This document shows, piece after piece, positions 806 to 24,073 of a DNA stretch of 24,073 bases. A program made the position numbers and the translations under genes. The notes under the pieces are model-generated. The model did no database searches, was not told where the DNA came from, and was given only the letters and a program-made list of their open reading frames with translations. This stretch comes from a virus, in the IMG/VR virus record IMGVR_UViG_3300033148_008094, positions 1 through 24,073 of that record, one strand, 5' to 3'. Within the stretch, counting starts at the first letter, position 1; every line of letters starts with the position of its first letter.

Positions 806-2092
806 TTATGCTCTTACTATATAAGTTACATTACTATTTGATCTCACATTAAATCTAAACGTAATTCCTGATGTGGTAATTTCTCCATAATCTCTATCAG
901 CATTAACTCCAGCCACACCTGTATCTGCAGCTAACAATTGTCCATCAACATATACATCCATATTATTACCTTCCTGTCCAACAGTAGAGAATGGTGTATA
1001 ACTAATACTATAAGGTAATGGATGTAAAACATTCTTAGGTATAATACCACTAATTTGTTCAATATATTTCTGTGGACTACATACAATAGAATCAGCTACA
1101 TCTTTAAGATTTTGGTCCAATTTATCTAATGAATCAGCAATATCTTCTCCACTAGAAATATAATTTTCCTCTAAATAATCACGATCACCTATCTCATCAT
1201 TAAGAAGATCTATCGCCGCCCATAAATTGTTTGGATCTGATTGAAGCGCGTAATATGCCGCAGTATTAGTCCACCCACTAGCATCATCAACATTATCTCC
1301 AGAACCAGTATATGACCATAGATTCACAATGTCTTCAATTAATTCAACATCCCCTTCCCAACTATCCACAAAATCTGTGCGCAGCCATTCGTATTCCTGC
1401 ATTTCAGACATAACCCTACGTAGGGGATATATAAATTTTACAGAAGTTACACCAGTTCCTGATAAATCACACGGTGAACCGTTTTTATAAAATCTAATAT
1501 ACGCATCAGTTCCTGTGCCAGTACCTGCAAAATCAGCACCATCATGAAACTTAGCATAAATTAAATCCGTACCATCGGTAAATTGAGCATCATTAATGGT
1601 ATTTAAAACATCTATACGACATACATTATCACTACCACCTTCGTCCCAATAACTACCAGTATTAACAACACTGGCAAAAATTGGTAAACCACGTCTATCT
1701 ATAGGTGTAGCATAAACGGCAGTTGTTGAAAGTAACACTCCTGTATCGGTTCCTGAAACAGTATAATAGGCACCTGAATTATCAGCAGACACAGCAACTA
1801 TTACTGTTTTAGAATCTACAGTATTGCTGGAAATATTACTTAAATTTAAATCTTTGTTGGTTGCATTCCCAGCATCTGTATCTGTGGGATCAAAATATTG
1901 TCCTAAATCACCAAACCAATTAGTGGTACCTTTTAAACCCTTCATTAGGGTTCTAAAAATATTTAAATCTTCTTCTAAAGTACCAGAAACAGTTGGTTCG
2001 GCTACATCGGATATAGTAGCATTAACAACTGAGTCACTATAAGTACTAGATCCTCTAATTTGAGTAAGTTGATCTAATAAACTTCTTGACAT
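806..2092 (-). CDS. probable virion (connector, tail or fibre) protein, 428 aa
   Basis: This is a large Thr/Ser/Gly/Asp-rich protein. The N-terminal third, after a short helix (SLLDQLTQIRG), includes 'GLKGTTNWFGDLGQYFDP'. The middle (about 90-220) is beta-rich and low in charge, typical of surface virion proteins. A more helical part (about 225-340) follows, and the C-terminal 50 residues form a small beta module (MDVYVDGQLL ... ITFRFNVRSNSNVTYIVRA) like those in phage tail and fibre proteins. The ATG at 2092 has a perfect AGGAGGT site 8 nt upstream, which a nearby complementary ACCTCCT could mask. Two genes downstream of the capsid gene, it is probably structural; the exact part of the virion is not determined. 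Confidence 0.8.
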   Translation of the reverse strand: MSRSLLDQLTQIRGSSTYSDSVVNATISDVAEPTVSGTLEEDLNIFRTLMKGLKGTTNWFGDLGQYFDPTDTDAGNATNKDLNLSNISSNTVDSKTVIVAVSADNSGAYYTVSGTDTGVLLSTTAVYATPIDRRGLPIFASVVNTGSYWDEGGSDNVCRIDVLNTINDAQFTDGTDLIYAKFHDGADFAGTGTGTDAYIRFYKNGSPCDLSGTGVTSVKFIYPLRRVMSEMQEYEWLRTDFVDSWEGDVELIEDIVNLWSYTGSGDNVDDASGWTNTAAYYALQSDPNNLWAAIDLLNDEIGDRDYLEENYISSGEDIADSLDKLDQNLKDVADSIVCSPQKYIEQISGIIPKNVLHPLPYSISYTPFSTVGQEGNNMDVYVDGQLLAADTGVAGVNADRDYGEITTSGITFRFNVRSNSNVTYIVRA

Positions 2093-2100
2093 ATGTAGGT

Positions 2101-2141
2101 ACCTCCTTTATTTTTACAGGAGGTGAAAATAATTACCTCCT
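2101..2141 (-). promoter_or_regulatory. alternative SD/anti-SD pairing element
   Basis: On the minus-strand RNA, AGGAGGT (2141-2135) overlaps the stop of the 154-aa gene (AGG AGG TAA). It is followed after 10 nt by its exact complement ACCTCCT (2124-2118) and then by a second AGGAGGT (2107-2101), the ribosome site of the 428-aa gene. The middle element can pair with either copy, perfectly over 7 bp. No U-run follows, so a terminator is unlikely. A translational switch is inferred. Confidence 0.55.
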
Positions 2142-2591
2142 TTGTGTTTCTAATTCAGTAACTCTCTTCTTTAAAATTCTACAAAGACTATCCTTACCTG
2201 GTCTAGGTTGAGCTTCTGCTAAAGAATACTTTAATAGTTTTAAATCAGTAACTCTAGGTATTATTTCTCTTGCACTCCTAACAGATAAAGAAATAACTTC
2301 CTCTATAGACATGTTTTTAGGATCTATTTTATTTACATCTACTTTTACTTCTTTCAGTAAGGTTTTATCTTCGGCAGGGGTCTGTTCTTTTCCTAATATA
2401 ATTTGCCATCTATTCTCATCCCTTAACTTTACAGTTTTAAGCCAACTGATAAACTCATCACCTTTAGTTAATTCATGTTTTTTACCATATTGATTATATA
2501 ACTCACTTAATGGTATCTTGCCGCCGGGCTTAATTGCTCTTTTCATAGCATGTAACCACATAGCGGATTTATTTAATACGTATCCTTCCAT
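2133..2591 (-). CDS. phage protein of unknown function, 152 aa
   Basis: No named domain recognised. The N-terminal half is basic and helical (NKSAMWLHAMKRAIKPGGK, then an ELYNQYG...HELTKGDEFISWL segment that could be a helix-turn-helix-like or winged fold). The C-terminal half is helical and charged and ends 'ETQRR'. Two in-frame ATGs lie close together; the second (2591) is chosen because AAGGAGA is 8 nt upstream of it but only 2 nt from the first (2597). Its stop overlaps the AGGAGGT hairpin arm described at 2101-2141. A head-completion or tail-assembly role would fit the position but is not shown. Confidence 0.8.
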   Translation of the reverse strand: MEGYVLNKSAMWLHAMKRAIKPGGKIPLSELYNQYGKKHELTKGDEFISWLKTVKLRDENRWQIILGKEQTPAEDKTLLKEVKVDVNKIDPKNMSIEEVISLSVRSAREIIPRVTDLKLLKYSLAEAQPRPGKDSLCRILKKRVTELETQRR

Positions 2592-2633
2592 TTTCATTCT
2601 CCTTCTCTTATGTTTTATTTAACAACCCTTTTC

Positions 2634-2980: not shown

Positions 2981-3009
2981 ATCCCACGCCATTAAAAATG
3001 ACGTGGGAT
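2981..3009 (-). terminator. hairpin after the major capsid gene
   Basis: As minus-strand RNA, AUCCCACG-U-CAUU / UUU / AAUG-G-CGUGGGAU forms a 13-bp stem with one U-G wobble and a 3-nt loop, followed by AUAUCUUUU. On the plus strand the wobble becomes a C-A mismatch, so the structure favours the minus direction. It starts 9 nt after the capsid stop and probably acts as a terminator, partial attenuator or 3'-end stabiliser. Confidence 0.7.
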
Positions 3010-3018
3010 TAATTTATT

Positions 3019-4089
3019 TTATAAACTTCTATCAATTACACCTATTCCCATCATTCTACTATCTAAACAAGCGAAACCTAATTCGGCCCAGCCGAAGAAA
3101 CCTTGTTTTTGAACTCTAAGCAGTGTAGGATCATCATGAGCTTCATAATCTTTTCTAACAGGCATAACTAAAGAATCATTGAGACTCAAATCAAAACCAA
3201 TAATCTGTGTCTCACCTAATGTGCTGATTGTACCATCAGCAGAAGTTACATTAGGATTATCCAATGTATAATTGTTATAGGTATCATCACCATCGGCAAG
3301 GAACTTACCATATTCTGATGTACTGCCATTAATATTATACATACCAGTAGCTCCAAGATGTTGTACTTCATGGAGGCTAACATTCCAAATCATTCCCATA
3401 CCAGCAGCTTGGAATATTTCTCTTCTAGTCACAGGATCAATGTCTGTATCCGTCCATTCACGAATATCAGCGGCATCTTCTGGGGCTACATAAAGATCCG
3501 TAAGAGTTCTACCAGTTCTCTTGAACCCAACCATCATTTTATTGATAAGTTCTTTAGAAAGATATCCGGCTCCTGTAGAAGCAGGATTGATCTCATAAAT
3601 AGGAGCAGGTCTTGATCCTAACAGTCCTTTACCTGAAAAAGCTGATGTAGCCGCAGGCATAATTACTCGCCAGCCACACTCTTCCTCATAATTGGCAAGA
3701 TCTTTGGCTGCTCTAGCAGCTGCTCTTTGAGGAATATCAATACGAGAATCTCTCGCATAAGTAATCTTCCAATCCGCAGAGGCATCGATGGTAAACGTAG
3801 GAACGTAAACCTCTTCACCAATACCTTCGATGAAGTTCTGAGCAACATAACCAAGCCCAGGCAATACCCATACTGGAATTTCAAAATCTTCTGCAATTGG
3901 ATATACAGCTTGTGCACCAGGCGCAAGCCTCTCAACCGCAAATAATTGACGCATAATTGATTCCAGCTCAATTTTCTGCAGAATTGGAGTTGTCAAAGCT
4001 GCAGCAAAAGCTCTGTACGCAGCAAGCCCTTCCTGTGTCTGAATCTCAGCCGTAGCTTTGAAAAGATCCATCATTTCTTGTCTATCCAT
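3019..4089 (-). CDS. major capsid protein, HK97 fold
   Basis: This 356-residue protein forms the icosahedral shell. The N-terminal helix (about 1-55) leads into a strand region with 'GAQAVYPIAEDFEIPVWVLPG', followed by the long E-loop-like segment and 'EEVYVPTFTIDASADWKITY'. The helical P-domain part is 'IDIPQRAAARAAKDLANYEEECGWRVI', and the C-terminal beta part contains 'MPVRKDYEAHDDPTLLRVQKQGFFGWAELGFACLDSRMMG'. The last segment is typical of phage capsid proteins that end in a domain referring to a 'mode of packing' strand and a glycine-rich turn. Position after protease, scaffold and decoration genes, and the hairpin just after its stop, also fit. Expression is likely high: a 76-nt leader with its own hairpin precedes it, with an AGGAGGAG ribosome site. 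Confidence 0.9.
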   Translation of the reverse strand: MDRQEMMDLFKATAEIQTQEGLAAYRAFAAALTTPILQKIELESIMRQLFAVERLAPGAQAVYPIAEDFEIPVWVLPGLGYVAQNFIEGIGEEVYVPTFTIDASADWKITYARDSRIDIPQRAAARAAKDLANYEEECGWRVIMPAATSAFSGKGLLGSRPAPIYEINPASTGAGYLSKELINKMMVGFKRTGRTLTDLYVAPEDAADIREWTDTDIDPVTRREIFQAAGMGMIWNVSLHEVQHLGATGMYNINGSTSEYGKFLADGDDTYNNYTLDNPNVTSADGTISTLGETQIIGFDLSLNDSLVMPVRKDYEAHDDPTLLRVQKQGFFGWAELGFACLDSRMMGIGVIDRSL

Positions 4090-4165: not shown

Positions 4166-4810
4166 TTATACCAAAAGTTTAATTCTAATTGGATAAAGAG
4201 TAGTATTAGCAATATTAGCAGTTGCTTTAGCAACACTAGCGCCTTTAACCACTCTAGCTACCGTAGTAGTCACACCAGTAATATATTCACCATCATAATC
4301 AGTGGCATCCGAACCATTACTAACATCATTAGTAACCTTAGCTTCATCCGCTGCGACATATAATGTGGCTCCAGGAAGTATAGCAGCGCTAGGTGTCGTA
4401 GCTGTACTAGCATCTCCACCAGTACCTTCTGCTGTATAATGTACTGTATCCCAAATACCAAGATGCGCCACAGCTACTGGTACTTCTTTGGTACCATTAA
4501 TAGCACCAGAACTGTATGAAGGCTGGGCAATAACATCACTAGAACCCAAATCCCCATTCATCACAAAGCCTGCTGGATGTACTGAATGATATCCAGTTTT
4601 TACTTTCTGCATGGAAAAACCAAAAGGAATAATACCAGTATCTCCATGAGCCATTTTTGATACAATAGCTTCTTGATTAGTAGCACCAGAATTTAATTTT
4701 AAAACTGAGCCTGCATAACAAAGCACACCACCAACTCCAGTAGCATCACTAGTTTGAGATTCATAAGCACAAAATTGGTTTTCTATAACAGAGTGTCTAG
4801 GTATAAACAT
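4166..4810 (-). CDS. probable capsid decoration or cement protein, 214 aa
   Basis: This is a beta-rich, Gly/Ala/Thr-rich protein with no signal or membrane segment. It begins 'MFIPRHSVIENQFCAYESQTSD' and contains 'AHGDTGIIPFGFSMQKVKTGYHSVHPAGFVMNGDLGSS', followed by Thr/Ala-rich loops and a C-terminal strand 'TTLYPIRIKLLV'. Its place directly between scaffold and major capsid genes is where many phages encode head decoration or cement proteins, and size and composition match. The call is inference from context; an alternative is a minor head protein. It is 14 nt downstream of the scaffold gene and shares its transcript. Confidence 0.65.
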   Translation of the reverse strand: MFIPRHSVIENQFCAYESQTSDATGVGGVLCYAGSVLKLNSGATNQEAIVSKMAHGDTGIIPFGFSMQKVKTGYHSVHPAGFVMNGDLGSSDVIAQPSYSSGAINGTKEVPVAVAHLGIWDTVHYTAEGTGGDASTATTPSAAILPGATLYVAADEAKVTNDVSNGSDATDYDGEYITGVTTTVARVVKGASVAKATANIANTTLYPIRIKLLV

Positions 4811-5746: not shown

Positions 5747-6187
5747 TTACGGTAAATTAGCTCTAATATTATCTTTACTCCAAGTACCACATGAAATACC
5801 AGTTATGTCTGGATCTACACCTAACATAAACATAACATCAACTGTAGATAAACCATCATTAGCACCAGCATTTTCAACCGTCAATTTGATATCTCCATCA
5901 CCTGTGGGGTCTTTAGTAACATAAAAATCACCAGCATCATAGTTAGGTGTTACTTGTACATTAACATAAGTTACTAAATCAAATCCATGAAATTTAGTTC
6001 CACTAGCAACAAGTGTAATCTCTGAAGAACCAGATGCTACAGTAGCAGTTACTCCCCACACAAATGGGTATGCATGGTTATTACCCATGTTTCTCCAGAT
6101 AACTTTGAGATTGTCATCACCATTAATTCTAGTAAGTTTTGGGGTACTTTTTAACAGCCCTACTTGGGCTTGTCCTAATTGTGACAT
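5747..6187 (-). CDS. beta-rich head-module protein, 146 aa
   Basis: Family not recognised. The sequence is made of short strands and loops (GVTATVASGSSEITLVASG, TYVNVQVTPNYDAGDFYV, GDGDIKLTVEN), with few charged helices and one Cys near the end. This looks like a virion surface or joining protein. It lies between the maturation protease and scaffold genes, so a head decoration or head-fibre role is reasonable. AGGAGG is well placed before the ATG. Confidence 0.75.
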   Translation of the reverse strand: MSQLGQAQVGLLKSTPKLTRINGDDNLKVIWRNMGNNHAYPFVWGVTATVASGSSEITLVASGTKFHGFDLVTYVNVQVTPNYDAGDFYVTKDPTGDGDIKLTVENAGANDGLSTVDVMFMLGVDPDITGISCGTWSKDNIRANLP

Positions 6188-6240
6188 ATTAAATCCTCCT
6201 TTTACGATGTTTGTTTAAACTGACTCGTATCAATCAGCTT

Positions 6241-7335
6241 TTAAAGCAATTTTTTTAATTCCTCCAACAATTTCTTTCTTTTATCTTTTTTAGATCTTTC
6301 TTCAAAAAGCTTTTTAGCTACGGTAGTAGCGGCTTTTGATACCTGATTCCTCAAACACTTAGGATCAGTAACATCCCTAGAGAAAGATGTACATCCTCTT
6401 TCATATAGGGTGCACCAATCTGTGTGTAAAATTTTATTTCTATCTTCAGAAGCACTATCAAAAACTGTTTTTCTATAATTTACACAAATTCCAACGGTAT
6501 CGTTGTATTGTAATTCAGCTTCTTCTGAAATAGATGTGTCTGTAATATTAGAGGTTACATTATTATTTTTTTCTTCCTTTGATATTTTATCATAATCTAT
6601 AATTAGAATATCGTTATTATTTTTCATATTTACTCCCTTATCTGCAGCCGTCTCTAATACTACTGATGGTGGATTGGCGGGTTTCTCTACAAAACCACAA
6701 CCAGAAAATGTAATACCACGTAATACCCTATCAATTTTACCTACAGCCAACTCTACTCCAGATTTAAGTACCTTACCAATTCTTCCAAATATATTAGGAT
6801 CATTAGCTATACCTAAAGCTTCGGCTTCCTTACGACTTATAATTAAATCTCCTATTTTCACATCAAAACTATTAAAATAAGCTTCCATACTAACACACCA
6901 TTTTCCTGATGCTACTTCATCTGCTAAATCTGGAAAACGATTTTTATAAACAATACCAGCTATTGCTACATGAAACTTCTTCTTATCCAAACTAGCTTCC
7001 TCAATAGAAGCTAATTCATCTAAAGAAATTTCTGCTCCCTTATCATCCATAAAAGCTCTTTTATAAATATGACCTACTATCTCCTCTTCCTTATGTTCAA
7101 CATCCATAGCTTTGTTTATAATTGTACCTTCAGCTTTTATTAATTCTGATGGAAGAAAATAAGCATGATTTAAATTAGCCCCAGACGACACAAAAACAGC
7201 GGAAAAATATTGTAAATCAATCTGTTTTTCTCCTTCTTTGGGTAACTCTATAATAGATGCTGCTTCTTTTAACTCATTAGTTTCATCATGTAATTGAATA
7301 TCAGCTTTTAAATAAATATGATCATTCTTTTCCAC
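6241..7335 (-). CDS. prohead maturation protease
   Basis: It is a phage head protease that would cut scaffold and capsid protein after assembly. The N-terminal half carries the fold pattern: 'NLNHAYFLPSELIKA', then 'NKAMDVEHKEEEIVGHI' with probable catalytic His81, and 'GKWCVSMEAYF' with probable nucleophile Ser149, followed by 'GITFSGCGFVEKPANPPS' (residues 207-224), a common end motif of the domain. Residues about 230-364 form an extension beyond the usual domain, with Cys-rich spacing (CVNY ... WCTLYERGC ... KC) and a Lys-rich helical end. It starts with GTG at 7335, 7 nt after AAGGAGG. The portal gene is immediately upstream. Confidence 0.8.
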   Translation of the reverse strand: MEKNDHIYLKADIQLHDETNELKEAASIIELPKEGEKQIDLQYFSAVFVSSGANLNHAYFLPSELIKAEGTIINKAMDVEHKEEEIVGHIYKRAFMDDKGAEISLDELASIEEASLDKKKFHVAIAGIVYKNRFPDLADEVASGKWCVSMEAYFNSFDVKIGDLIISRKEAEALGIANDPNIFGRIGKVLKSGVELAVGKIDRVLRGITFSGCGFVEKPANPPSVVLETAADKGVNMKNNNDILIIDYDKISKEEKNNNVTSNITDTSISEEAELQYNDTVGICVNYRKTVFDSASEDRNKILHTDWCTLYERGCTSFSRDVTDPKCLRNQVSKAATTVAKKLFEERSKKDKRKKLLEELKKLL

Positions 7336-7405
7336 TTTGAATCCTCCTTATAAACTACTATGTCTTTTTCTTATATGGTAACCCTCTACTTATTATGTAG
7401 TTAGT

Positions 7406-9340
7406 TTATTTATCTAATCTTAATTTCTCTAACTCATACTTAAAATCTAAAAAATCTTCTTTACTCATTCCTTTAACCACATCACTTATAGTTTGACCAG
7501 ATGTTGCTTTTTTAGGTTTAGGTGTTTTTGCTGTCGGGACTGGTTCAGGTGTTTTCTTTTTTGCTGGTTGACTCTTTGGTCTACCAGATGATGGTGTTCC
7601 AGTAGGAGATTTTTGTACTGGCTGTACAGTTCCTCCTCCCTCACCAAGAGGACTTTTTGATTGTTGCCATGGTGAACCAATAATACCAAATAAACCATCT
7701 TGTACAATTGGAAACTCTTCCTCCATATTTTTCTTTTCGTTTGGAAAATCAAAACCTAAAGCTTCAAGTGCAGTTCTATAACTTAACATACGACGATCAA
7801 CAAGTTGTGATAATGTATTCATATATAATACTAGATCTTGTAACACTCCCTCATCCCATCTAATTTTTGGAAAACTATCGAAACCTACAGCTTCAGCTAT
7901 TTGTTGATATTCCCTATACAACCATCTAGTAACCTGCCTTCTGGCATAATTTATCTCTTCCATAAGACCTTTAATAACTAATCCTGCTTCTGCTACATTT
8001 AAGTCAGAAATACCATCTATCAAAGCTCTAGACATAGCTAAACCACCAGATATATCATCATTAACCTGAGCATACTTATCTTGTCCTAATATAGCTTCAA
8101 TTTCTGGTGATACTACTTTTTCTATCTTTAATGTATGATTCCACACCACGTCAAATGATTTACTTGGTGTATTAAATAATTGAGCTACTGCCTCAAGCTC
8201 TGTTTGTGTAGTAACAGGGTACTCATCAGAACCAATTGTTACTTTTAAAATATAATTAGATATACCATCTAAAGTACTCAAGTCAGCTTGTCTTAAAGAT
8301 TTTTTATAATCTAAGCTTTCAAACACACGTGTAGTTCTAGGTTTGGCATATCTTTCATACGGTTGTTTTCTATAAGTAATACTACCCACTAACCTAGAAT
8401 CCAATGCATACTCTCCGCCTTTTTCAGCAGCTTTTTTCAAATCACCTGGTAAAGCTTTTATAAGAGCACGTTCTTCCTCGGTTTGATCTTTAGTGGGTTT
8501 CTTTAATAGTGTGGTTAATTCTGGGGGTGGTCTTAAGGTTATTGATGTTTTATCAAATAGTAAATTACCAGTAACACTGACTAATTGAGGATTTAAAACT
8601 GTGTATGCAACAGGTAAGTGTCCTTTTGACCATATATTTTTCTTTGCGCCCTCTTCAAGTTCTTTTATTTCTTTGCTAGTTTTACCAAGCTTTTTTGCTT
8701 CTTCTCTGAGAGCTTTTAAAACCTCTTCCACCTCTTGTTCGGCTAATTCTTTTAACATTTCTCCGGTAGCTTTAGATTTTTTTGTAGATTTAGTTAATTT
8801 TTTTCCTGGAATGGGTGAAAGATAGGATACTCTTGGTTCATATTTAGCTAAAACTTTATATGTAACAACATGTCCTATCTTAAAAAAATCTAGAAAAATC
8901 CATTCTAATATCTCAAGTAAATTAACATCGAAAGCCCAAGCATCATAAAACTGTTTAATATTAGCATCGTCTATATCATTTTCAAATCCTTTCGTACATA
9001 AGGTAGTTAATAAATTTATAACCGTACCCACTAAAGGATCAGTATAATAATATCTATCAGCTCTTTTAAATAAATTTTGTGGTGTATCTTCATACGGATC
9101 TTTCTGAACTAAATCTAAACTTGTCCTATCAACAGTATCTCTTGTAATAGTAGCAGCTGTCTCTCTGAAAACATGAGGAACTGCAGCTCTACCTTTATCA
9201 AGAAAAGCTAATGTTTTATTAGTAGGATTTAAGTAGAACGATGAACTTCCATTCTCATGAACTTCTATCTTTTTTAATCCTACTTCAGGATATTTTTCTT
9301 GTAATGTAGTAGTTATTTCATCAAGTGTACCTTTTTTCAT
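7406..9340 (-). CDS. portal protein
   Basis: The 644-residue protein forms the dodecameric DNA entry ring at one capsid vertex and docks the terminase. Portal-like features are 'FKRADRYYYTDPLVGTVINLL', the 'FYDAWAFDVNLLEILEWIFLDFFKIGHVVTYKVL' clip/wing region, a Lys/Glu-rich insertion around 180-235, and the 'SFDVVWNHTLKIEKV' and 'GLAMSRALIDGISDLNVAEAGLVIKGLMEEINYARRQVTRWLYREYQQIAE' helical core. The C-terminal 100 residues are a Pro/Lys/Gly-rich, probably disordered tail (KSPTGTPSSGRPK ... PKPKKATSG). It starts at an ATG overlapping the stop of a 37-aa gene (ATGA), so the two are likely translationally coupled. Confidence 0.9.
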   Translation of the reverse strand: MKKGTLDEITTTLQEKYPEVGLKKIEVHENGSSSFYLNPTNKTLAFLDKGRAAVPHVFRETAATITRDTVDRTSLDLVQKDPYEDTPQNLFKRADRYYYTDPLVGTVINLLTTLCTKGFENDIDDANIKQFYDAWAFDVNLLEILEWIFLDFFKIGHVVTYKVLAKYEPRVSYLSPIPGKKLTKSTKKSKATGEMLKELAEQEVEEVLKALREEAKKLGKTSKEIKELEEGAKKNIWSKGHLPVAYTVLNPQLVSVTGNLLFDKTSITLRPPPELTTLLKKPTKDQTEEERALIKALPGDLKKAAEKGGEYALDSRLVGSITYRKQPYERYAKPRTTRVFESLDYKKSLRQADLSTLDGISNYILKVTIGSDEYPVTTQTELEAVAQLFNTPSKSFDVVWNHTLKIEKVVSPEIEAILGQDKYAQVNDDISGGLAMSRALIDGISDLNVAEAGLVIKGLMEEINYARRQVTRWLYREYQQIAEAVGFDSFPKIRWDEGVLQDLVLYMNTLSQLVDRRMLSYRTALEALGFDFPNEKKNMEEEFPIVQDGLFGIIGSPWQQSKSPLGEGGGTVQPVQKSPTGTPSSGRPKSQPAKKKTPEPVPTAKTPKPKKATSGQTISDVVKGMSKEDFLDFKYELEKLRLDK

Positions 9341-21916: not shown

Positions 21917-22498
21917 TTACCTTTTTGTTAAAATCCGATCTATAATTCCATACTGTAAAGCCTCATCAGCTTTCATAAAATAATCTCTGTCTGCATCTTT
22001 TAATATACTTTTCTTGTTTTTATTGGTATGTTTAGATAAAATATCATATAATGTGTCCCTTAACCCTAATATCTCATTAGCTTGGATTTCAATATCAGAT
22101 GCTTGTCCTTGAAAACCACCAAGAGGTTGATGAATCATAACTCTTGAATGAGGCAACGCACTTCTTTTACCCCGCGTACCGGCAGCTAATAAAACAGCAC
22201 CCATACTGTAAGCCTGTCCTACACAAATGGTATTAATATCTGGTTTAATATATTGCATAGTATCATAAACGGCCAAACCAGCATCTACTACACCACCATT
22301 AGAACTAATATACATAAAAATATCCGCTTCTGAATCCTGTGATTCTAAAAATAATAATTGAGCCACAATAGAATTTCCTACTTGATCATCTATTATACCA
22401 TTCAAAAATATAATCCTATCTTTTAAAATTCTACTGTATAAATCATAGACTCGTTCATTTCCGCTTTCACCTTCAATCACATATGGTATCCTTGTCAT
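21917..22498 (-). CDS. clpP: ClpP-type serine protease
   Basis: A 193-residue serine protease that normally forms a double heptamer and needs a Clp ATPase for unfolding. The triad is complete: Ser98 in GQAYSMGA, His123 in MIHQPLGG and Asp172 in DADRDYFM. The start ([18 protein letters not shown]) and '[19 protein letters not shown]' match bacterial ClpP closely. The usual SPGG loop reads SNGG (66-69), keeping the oxyanion glycines. No ATPase partner (ClpX or ClpA) is in the window, so host partners are likely. It is first in an operon with a good promoter and is distinct from the prohead protease at 6241-7335. Confidence 0.95.
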
Positions 22499-23455: not shown

Positions 23456-24073
23456 TTAACCCCTTTTTGTAAGTATTTCCGGCCCATCCTCTGTAATAGC
23501 TATTGTATGTTCGAAATGTGCAGATAAACCATTGTCTTTTGTTACTACAGTCCATTTCCCTTTTCTTATGTTTTTTGAACTCTTTTCAGTTACCATTGGT
23601 TCTATTGCTATTATCATTCCAATTTTTAGCATTAACCCTTCCTTAGCTTTACCATAATTTAAGATTTGTGGGTTTTCATGTAATTCACGTCCTATTCCAT
23701 GTCCTCCATAATTTCTTATCACATTAAATCCATTGTCCTCTACACATGTCTGTATTATACTCGACAAATCCCCCAGACGCTTATTACAGGTAGATCTCTC
23801 TATGGCACTATACAATGCCTTCTCCGTTATAGATACAAGCTTCAGCGCACTCTGAGACACTTTACCTATAGGAATAGTTATTGCCGTATCAGAATACCAG
23901 CCTTCCCAAATTGCGCCTACATCAACGCTTAGTATATCACCTTCAATTAATTCTCTATCAGAAGGTAATCCATGTATAACTTCTTCATTTATAGAAGCAC
24001 ACATTGTAAAAGGAAATCCCTTGTAACCTAAAAATGCAGGAATAGCTTTATGCTGTCTTATAATTTTTTCAGC
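23456..24073 (-). CDS. map: methionine aminopeptidase type I (5' end outside window)
   Basis: A metal-dependent enzyme that removes the initiator Met from new proteins. The 205 residues visible begin 'KIIRQHKAIPAFLGYKGFPFTMCASINEEVIHG', as expected for the family, and cover nearly all the catalytic domain. The five metal ligands are present (fragment numbering): Asp51 (SVDVG), Asp62 (SDTA), His125 (GGHGIGRE), Glu158 (AIEPM) and Glu189 (HFEHT), plus the catalytic His34. About 50 residues upstream lie outside the window. An internal ATG at 24004 is not the start, since upstream codons match the family. It is uncommon in phages and close to bacterial enzymes, suggesting capture from a host. Confidence 0.95.
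   Translation of the reverse strand, partial: AEKIIRQHKAIPAFLGYKGFPFTMCASINEEVIHGLPSDRELIEGDILSVDVGAIWEGWYSDTAITIPIGKVSQSALKLVSITEKALYSAIERSTCNKRLGDLSSIIQTCVEDNGFNVIRNYGGHGIGRELHENPQILNYGKAKEGLMLKIGMIIAIEPMVTEKSSKNIRKGKWTVVTKDNGLSAHFEHTIAITEDGPEILTKRG

Follow-up and report, generated by a model that had tools for sequence, protein, structure and literature searches.

A candidate three-element RNA switch at the p154/p428 gene junction of a phage, predicted to be operated by ribosomes terminating on the upstream gene

The stretch of DNA analysed here, called the window, comprises 24,073 nucleotides of the IMG/VR virus record IMGVR_UViG_3300033148_008094, and the genes of interest lie on its minus strand. 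A major capsid protein gene (3019-4089, minus strand; phrog_2522 major head protein, E 1.2e-11) forms the upstream context of a 154-aa ORF (p154; 2133-2597, minus strand) and a 428-aa ORF (p428; 806-2092, minus strand), which are the upstream and downstream partners of the junction under study. No PHROG match was obtained for p154, and its only Pfam match was far under the cut-off; its predicted structure is fair (mean pLDDT 77), and a fold search with the model had no match at an E value of 0.001 or below. For p428, no PHROG, Pfam or PDB sequence match was found, nor any match among phage records, and its predicted structure is poor (mean pLDDT 51), with named fold matches, mostly to tail-fibre, tailspike and adaptor proteins, whose low TM-scores make them a hint only. 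A first-pass annotation of the sequence had called p428 a virion gene; its position behind the major capsid gene and these weak fold matches lend weak support to a virion protein, possibly a tail-fibre-like one. Other features were seen in the window: a terminator-like hairpin of 13 pairs on the coding strand directly behind the capsid gene (2981-3009), a gene for an actin-like protein in this phage genome (20308-21303; Volactin family match, PF25216, E 3.6e-59), and genes for a ClpP-like protease (21917-22498; PF00574) and an M24 metallopeptidase (23456-24073; PF00557).

Read along the RNA, the p154/p428 junction has the order SD1-10 nt-ASD-10 nt-SD2-8 nt-ATG. SD1, an anti-anti-SD of sequence AGGAGGT (2135-2141, minus strand), is made up of the last two arginine codons of p154, AGG AGG, plus the T at 2135 that opens its stop codon TAA (2135-2133). 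Loop 1 (2125-2134, minus strand) includes the last two bases of this stop codon, and it is followed on the same strand by the anti-SD, or ASD, ACCTCCT (2118-2124), by loop 2 (2108-2117) and by SD2, a second AGGAGGT (2101-2107) that is the ribosome-binding site of p428, whose ATG lies at 2092-2090. The three-element observation is thus real in the window, and the first-pass annotation was right in its description of this minus-strand segment (2141-2101): the three motifs occur in the order it gave, the first overlaps the upstream stop, the last is the true ribosome site, and the middle one pairs perfectly with either copy, seven of seven positions with SD1 (helix 1) and seven of seven with SD2 (helix 2). 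The two local hairpins are near-equal in energy, with -9.9 kcal/mol for SD1:ASD and -10.7 kcal/mol for ASD:SD2. ACCTCCT has no second occurrence on the coding strand of the entire window, and the chance of an RCCTCCT between the two SDs is about 2 in 10,000 when only base composition is considered; the number of AGGAGGT motifs in the window is only mildly raised (7 against 2.67 expected, with 4 of 100 shuffles equally high). The segment was also considered as an intrinsic terminator and rejected, since no T run lies behind either helix on the minus strand of the window; a terminator scan covering loops of 3-8 listed none at the junction on this strand, and a weak site on the plus strand (2118-2141) lies where no gene is visible. 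No Rfam match at gathering score was found anywhere in the window.

Related loci were collected through scans that used the p428, p154 and capsid proteins as queries (for the last, the best 80 of 169 relatives) and through two pattern scans, with repeated contigs merged. The full triple was detected at seven distinct homologous junctions of uncultured phages, those of the window, L007, L022, L024, L039, L043 and L149, and p154 identity to the window copy is 57-83% in the triple-bearing relatives. Mean pairwise identity over the seven junctions was 0.96 for SD1, 0.92 for the ASD and 0.92 for SD2, against 0.51 for loop 1, 0.60 for loop 2 and 0.35 for the SD-to-start spacer with gaps left out; in the first figures for these segments (0.43, 0.38 and 0.31) the loops seem more diverged than they really are because gaps were scored as differences. 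The last 12 nt of p154 ahead of SD1 showed an identity of 0.79 (gaps left out). Loop 1 measures 9-13 nt and loop 2 10-36 nt. The first base of the ASD is G in L039, L043 and L149; L043 carries CGGAGGT as SD1, with TAG as the stop codon, and GGGAGGT as SD2, and the SD2 of L149 is AGGAGGA. The final two arginine codons of p154 are AGG AGG at six and CGG AGG at one of the seven p428-adjacent junctions, while AGG accounts for 12 of the 67 remaining arginine codons of the p154 genes, and in the genes of the window AGA is four times commoner than AGG (215 vs 54).

Among 39 distinct p428 junctions, seven bear the full triple, three bear weak forms of it and 29 have neither an ASD nor an upstream GGAGGT, in such a way that the conservation which the first-pass annotation had proposed as a check holds for the nearest relatives and does not extend to most of the p428 set. 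In the p154 tree (37 rows, with L022 placed through its complete p154 copy) all seven fell in one branch of nine rows (support 90/91), together with the triple-less L168 and L194, and two changes are needed to account for the triple; a second clade groups the weak forms L072, L183 and L190 with L161, in which no form is seen. In the p428 tree (35 rows, L039 and L072 not being detected) three changes are needed, and the triple-bearing rows do not make one group. Apart from the weak forms (L072, L183 and L190), the triple is restricted to a single branch of the p154 tree. A covariance model covering 74 loci recovered the three weak forms only at E 0.12-0.27, and they were outscored by L104, L107 and L090 (E 0.0015-0.012), which are plain SD starts without an ASD. 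The weak forms were not counted as members, with the exception of L072, which enters the class with SD1 plus ASD by the sorting rule given below. In genome contigs a single p154 relative was found (L159, a WOR-3 MAG), and no ASD was seen there.

Several observations were made by eye in these loci. In L039 (3516-3800) p428 is cut down to a short N-terminal piece plus decayed remains, with the three-element junction intact and with different, repeat-rich genes downstream. In L184 and L188, just upstream of 2501, another possible stem (GCCAG...CTGGC) lies over the p154 stop and the triple is absent. Homing-endonuclease-like ORFs are found in or beside the capsid gene in L149 (1541-2578), L024 (1542-2981) and L001 (2499-3971), and in L149 the C-terminal half of an 802-aa ORF behind p428 (5887-8295) holds another stretch resembling p428.

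The p154 3' end and its leader occur twice in L022, at 1114-1623 and at 4375-4532, the gene order being complete p154, a gene with its own SD, three more genes, a short p154 tail and p428. The short copy, directly ahead of p428, holds about 80 nt of the p154 3' end within an open frame of 32 codons, and its triple is intact, with AGG AGG as the final arginine codons. In the complete copy these codons are AGA CGA, and the triple is degenerate (AGACGAT, ATCTTTT, AAGAGGT); both helices can still form weakly, helix 1 with two compensated pairs plus one mismatch and helix 2 with one compensated pair. Nine of 27 compared codons differ between the copies, seven of them silently. As the intact triple is found only in the short copy before p428, the element goes with p428, and the AGA CGA of the complete copy indicates that the SD-like codons are not required by the p154 protein. 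The presence of the second copy behind four other genes suggests that the leader is able to move, or to be retained, as one unit. The SD of the ATG that opens the 32-codon frame is weak and distant (by eye), so that translation of this frame is a guess.

The relation between SD1 and the ASD was analysed in 64 distinct p154 ends, namely L149, both L022 copies and 61 ends obtained from the best 80 of 169 capsid relatives plus the p154 and p428 scans. They were sorted by the presence of GGAGGT over the stop, of a next ORF of at least 40 codons starting no more than 13 nt from the stop, and of RCCTCC within 37 nt. SD1 lies over the stop in 19 of the 64 ends. In 11 of these the next gene starts directly behind, and the ASD is absent from all 11; in the remaining eight no gene starts there, and all eight have the ASD (the seven junctions plus L072). 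The 45 ends without SD1, which include the complete L022 copy and the near-variants L066 and L081 (on the contigs of L190 and L183), have no ASD. Among the p154 ends examined, a strict association between a geneless SD1 and the ASD is shown by these sequences, with the ASD in 8 of 8 such ends and in 0 of 56 others, although the ends are related by descent and do not count as independent trials. A scan of viral contigs that asked only for the p154 tail plus SD1 returned eight contigs with six distinct junctions, none of them new, and all six bear the ASD and SD2.

This association can be read in another way than as part of a switch. In the 11 ends with an ORF start within 13 nt, SD1 looks like the ribosome site of the next gene, and where no gene is left behind it SD1 could be a leftover site, with the ASD serving to hide it from useless initiation and the pairing with SD2 arising as a by-product. 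The 11 of 64 ends that have GGAGGT over the stop, a gene start immediately behind it and no ASD fit this explanation, which accounts for an ASD found only where SD1 has no gene as well as the switch does; the short and even loop of helix 1 (9-13 nt) and the start codon found 4-12 nt behind SD1 in four of the seven junctions also agree with it. A silent change could however remove SD1, as has already happened in the complete L022 copy (AGA CGA), and one would expect a site without a use to disappear, yet AGG AGG or CGG AGG is kept at 7 of 7 junctions before p428 in spite of the preference of the window for AGA. Moreover, masking SD2 as well would be a cost to p428. On these grounds we consider the covering of a leftover site doubtful, while giving it real weight. 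A small ORF served by SD1 and crossing the ASD was also considered and dropped, as the starts found in four of the seven junctions are in differing frames and encode no common peptide; by a rough estimate, such starts are about as frequent as expected in AT-rich DNA.

That the triple arose by chance, or as a by-product of SD-rich sequence, is very unlikely. The bare triple pattern does have 29 matches in the viral collection, 26 of them elsewhere than at the p154/p428 junction, and a looser pattern has 27 matches, of which seven contigs (five junctions) correspond to this junction; several of the off-junction matches resemble repetitive coding DNA by eye. Against chance stand the conservation of the elements next to diverged loops and the 8 of 8 versus 0 of 56 association, with the related ends being non-independent. 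A control on starts points the same way: of 522 distinct starts with a strong SD in these loci, only seven have RCCTCC 14-75 nt upstream, and all seven precede p428 (L072 being among them, and L039, with its broken p428, not being counted). A further SD-ASD-SD arrangement was seen in L015 (2903-2943, minus strand), between a capsid-like 312-aa gene (by eye) and the next gene, where hairpin 1 seems, by eye, to reach over the stop; this contig is absent from the protein-scan matches.

The two helices were then compared by folding. All energies are equilibrium values for short stretches, and are silent on rates and on a ribosome that scans at a later time. In the free RNA helix 2 is dominant in the window, L007, L024 and L039 (probability 0.87-1.00) and narrowly ahead in L022, and helix 1 is ahead in L043 and L149. 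The cost of opening SD2 in the free RNA of the window was 5.0, 6.6 or 6.8 kcal/mol, depending on the stretch folded, and by the last value none of the other SDs, in the 26 SD-bearing genes of the 36 in the window, costs as much to open as that of p428. The p428 relatives without an ASD (29 control junctions less L177, which has no SD) gave a median opening cost of 1.9 kcal/mol, with a range of 0.35-7.4 that overlaps the triple-bearers; 8 of these 28 exceed 3.5 kcal/mol, L003 reaching 7.4, and a buried SD is therefore not peculiar to the triple.

The footprint of a ribosome standing on a stop codon reaches from position -18 to position +12 relative to the first stop base. At all seven junctions the distance from the first base of the p154 stop to the start of the ASD is 10-14 nt, which would place that start at about the leading edge of such a ribosome. 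The terminating ribosome, with the stop in its A site, was modelled by barring pairing from -18 to +12 nt of the first stop base, clipped at the ASD. Under this condition the predicted cost of opening SD2 rose at all seven junctions, from 2.4-5.5 to 6.0-11.1 kcal/mol, the rise being small in L039 (5.1 to 6.0), and when the ASD was barred too the cost was 2.6-5.4 kcal/mol, that is, the rise was abolished. The cost also rose in the three weak forms, and it fell in the complete L022 copy (4.8 to 3.3). These predictions agree with the proposal of the first-pass annotation that pairing moves from SD1 to SD2 when a ribosome occupies the upstream stop; that annotation gave no sign for the resulting coupling, and the folding model predicts a negative one.

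The same calculations bear on ordinary positive coupling, in which helix 2 would hold p428 off until a ribosome from upstream opened it by scanning or melting. SD2 is mostly masked in the free RNA of several members, and RNA unfolding is one of the two explanations given for coupling where the downstream ribosome site is masked (PMC12548453). But the ASD lies outside the translated part, 10-14 nt past the first stop base, covering SD1 strengthens the predicted masking at 7 of 7 junctions, and such coupling would give no role to SD1 in spite of the 8 of 8 co-occurrence of geneless SD1 and ASD; we regard it as unlikely. Smaller still is the probability we give to helix 1 being a hairpin for RNA processing or stability at the 3' end of p154, with no part in p428 initiation. 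Its energy of -9.9 to -11.6 kcal/mol at the seven junctions would suit that role, which leaves unexplained why one arm copies an SD and overlies the stop, and the hairpin is absent from most other p154 ends and has no T run after it on the coding strand of the window.

Covariation was also scored. For helix 1, 96.4% of the cells were paired, with two both-side changes, and 4 of 500 shuffles were equally high, while helix 2 was not clearly above the shuffles (62 of 500 equally high); when the ASDs were re-dealt among the eight distinct triples, p was 0.06 (helix 1) and 0.38 (helix 2). The both-side changes are all contributed by a single row, the complete L022 copy, whose helix 1 also contains a mismatch; being so few and from one row, they were not accepted as proof of pairing.

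Taken with the conservation and the association, the folding suggests, and does not prove, that ribosomes finishing p154 control the amount of p428. We tentatively favour the p154/p428 junction as a candidate three-element RNA switch operated by ribosomes, a reading that could about as easily prove wrong as right. Pairing of the ASD with SD1 would leave SD2 free and p428 on, and pairing with SD2 would mask p428. A ribosome terminating on p154 would cover SD1 and end just short of the ASD, in such a way that the ASD would be pushed onto SD2 and p428 initiation would drop while p154 is being finished, whereas RNAs without p154 translation could form helix 1 and permit p428 synthesis. Where helix 2 is dominant without a ribosome, the "on" state would depend on kinetics or on folding during transcription, in which helix 1 would have to form first. 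The switch would then act as a governor, preventing p428 output from increasing in parallel with that of the upstream genes. The model predicts that ribosomes at the p154 stop repress p428, the reverse of ordinary translational coupling; its sign is the weakest step, as a ribosome scanning into the ASD after termination could reverse it. The wider notion of a portable leader cassette (p154 tail, SD1, ASD and SD2), with p428 translation inverse to p154 termination and the ribosome as the ligand, is possible and, on the present evidence, somewhat doubtful. If true, the switch would be a compact means of setting the ratio between two phage proteins without a protein regulator, in which the ribosome that finishes one gene shuts the next.

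In erm/cat translational attenuation, mutually exclusive hairpins are chosen by the position of an upstream ribosome. The p154/p428 junction resembles it in its alternative hairpins, one of which is predicted to mask the SD of the regulated gene, and differs in lacking a short leader ORF, since the upstream reading frame of the window is an entire gene of 154 aa, and a frame of 32 codons is found only in L022; neither a known stalling signal nor a known inducer is seen here, and the position on the stop is predicted to be repressive and not inducing. In the E. coli btuB riboswitch, an SD-like sequence pairs with an anti-SD and releases the SD (PMC11162775). As in switches of this type, the junction has an SD copy, an anti-SD and an SD in order with mutually exclusive pairing, but no known ligand aptamer was found (no Rfam family reaches gathering score in the window; an undescribed aptamer is conceivable, but the upstream arm is p154 coding sequence), and the anti-anti-SD sits on the stop codon, so that the terminating ribosome would be the effector. 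If experiments bear this out, the arrangement would be a known anti-anti-SD logic in a new setting, a gene junction run by ribosome position.

PMC12548453 describes translational coupling as usually positive, translation of one gene helping the next, and gives f1 VII/IX, MS2 coat/lysis and rpmI-rplT as examples of coupling by RNA unfolding. Like these, p154 and p428 are neighbours, and the downstream ribosome site is predicted to lie in a structure swayed by upstream translation; unlike them, there is an extra SD over the stop, and the predicted sign is negative. In the open-licence literature, as far as its accessible text goes, no phage element of the SD1-stop/ASD/SD2 type was found, which does not imply its absence from print. 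An SD that overlaps the upstream stop codon is itself a described arrangement (PMC2784483), shared here by SD1, which serves the next gene in 11 relatives; unlike the overlaps treated there, SD1 is geneless at the seven junctions and the real SD is the second copy. The duplication in L022, together with the relatives that use SD1 for another gene, suggests how a ribosome site may join a switch.
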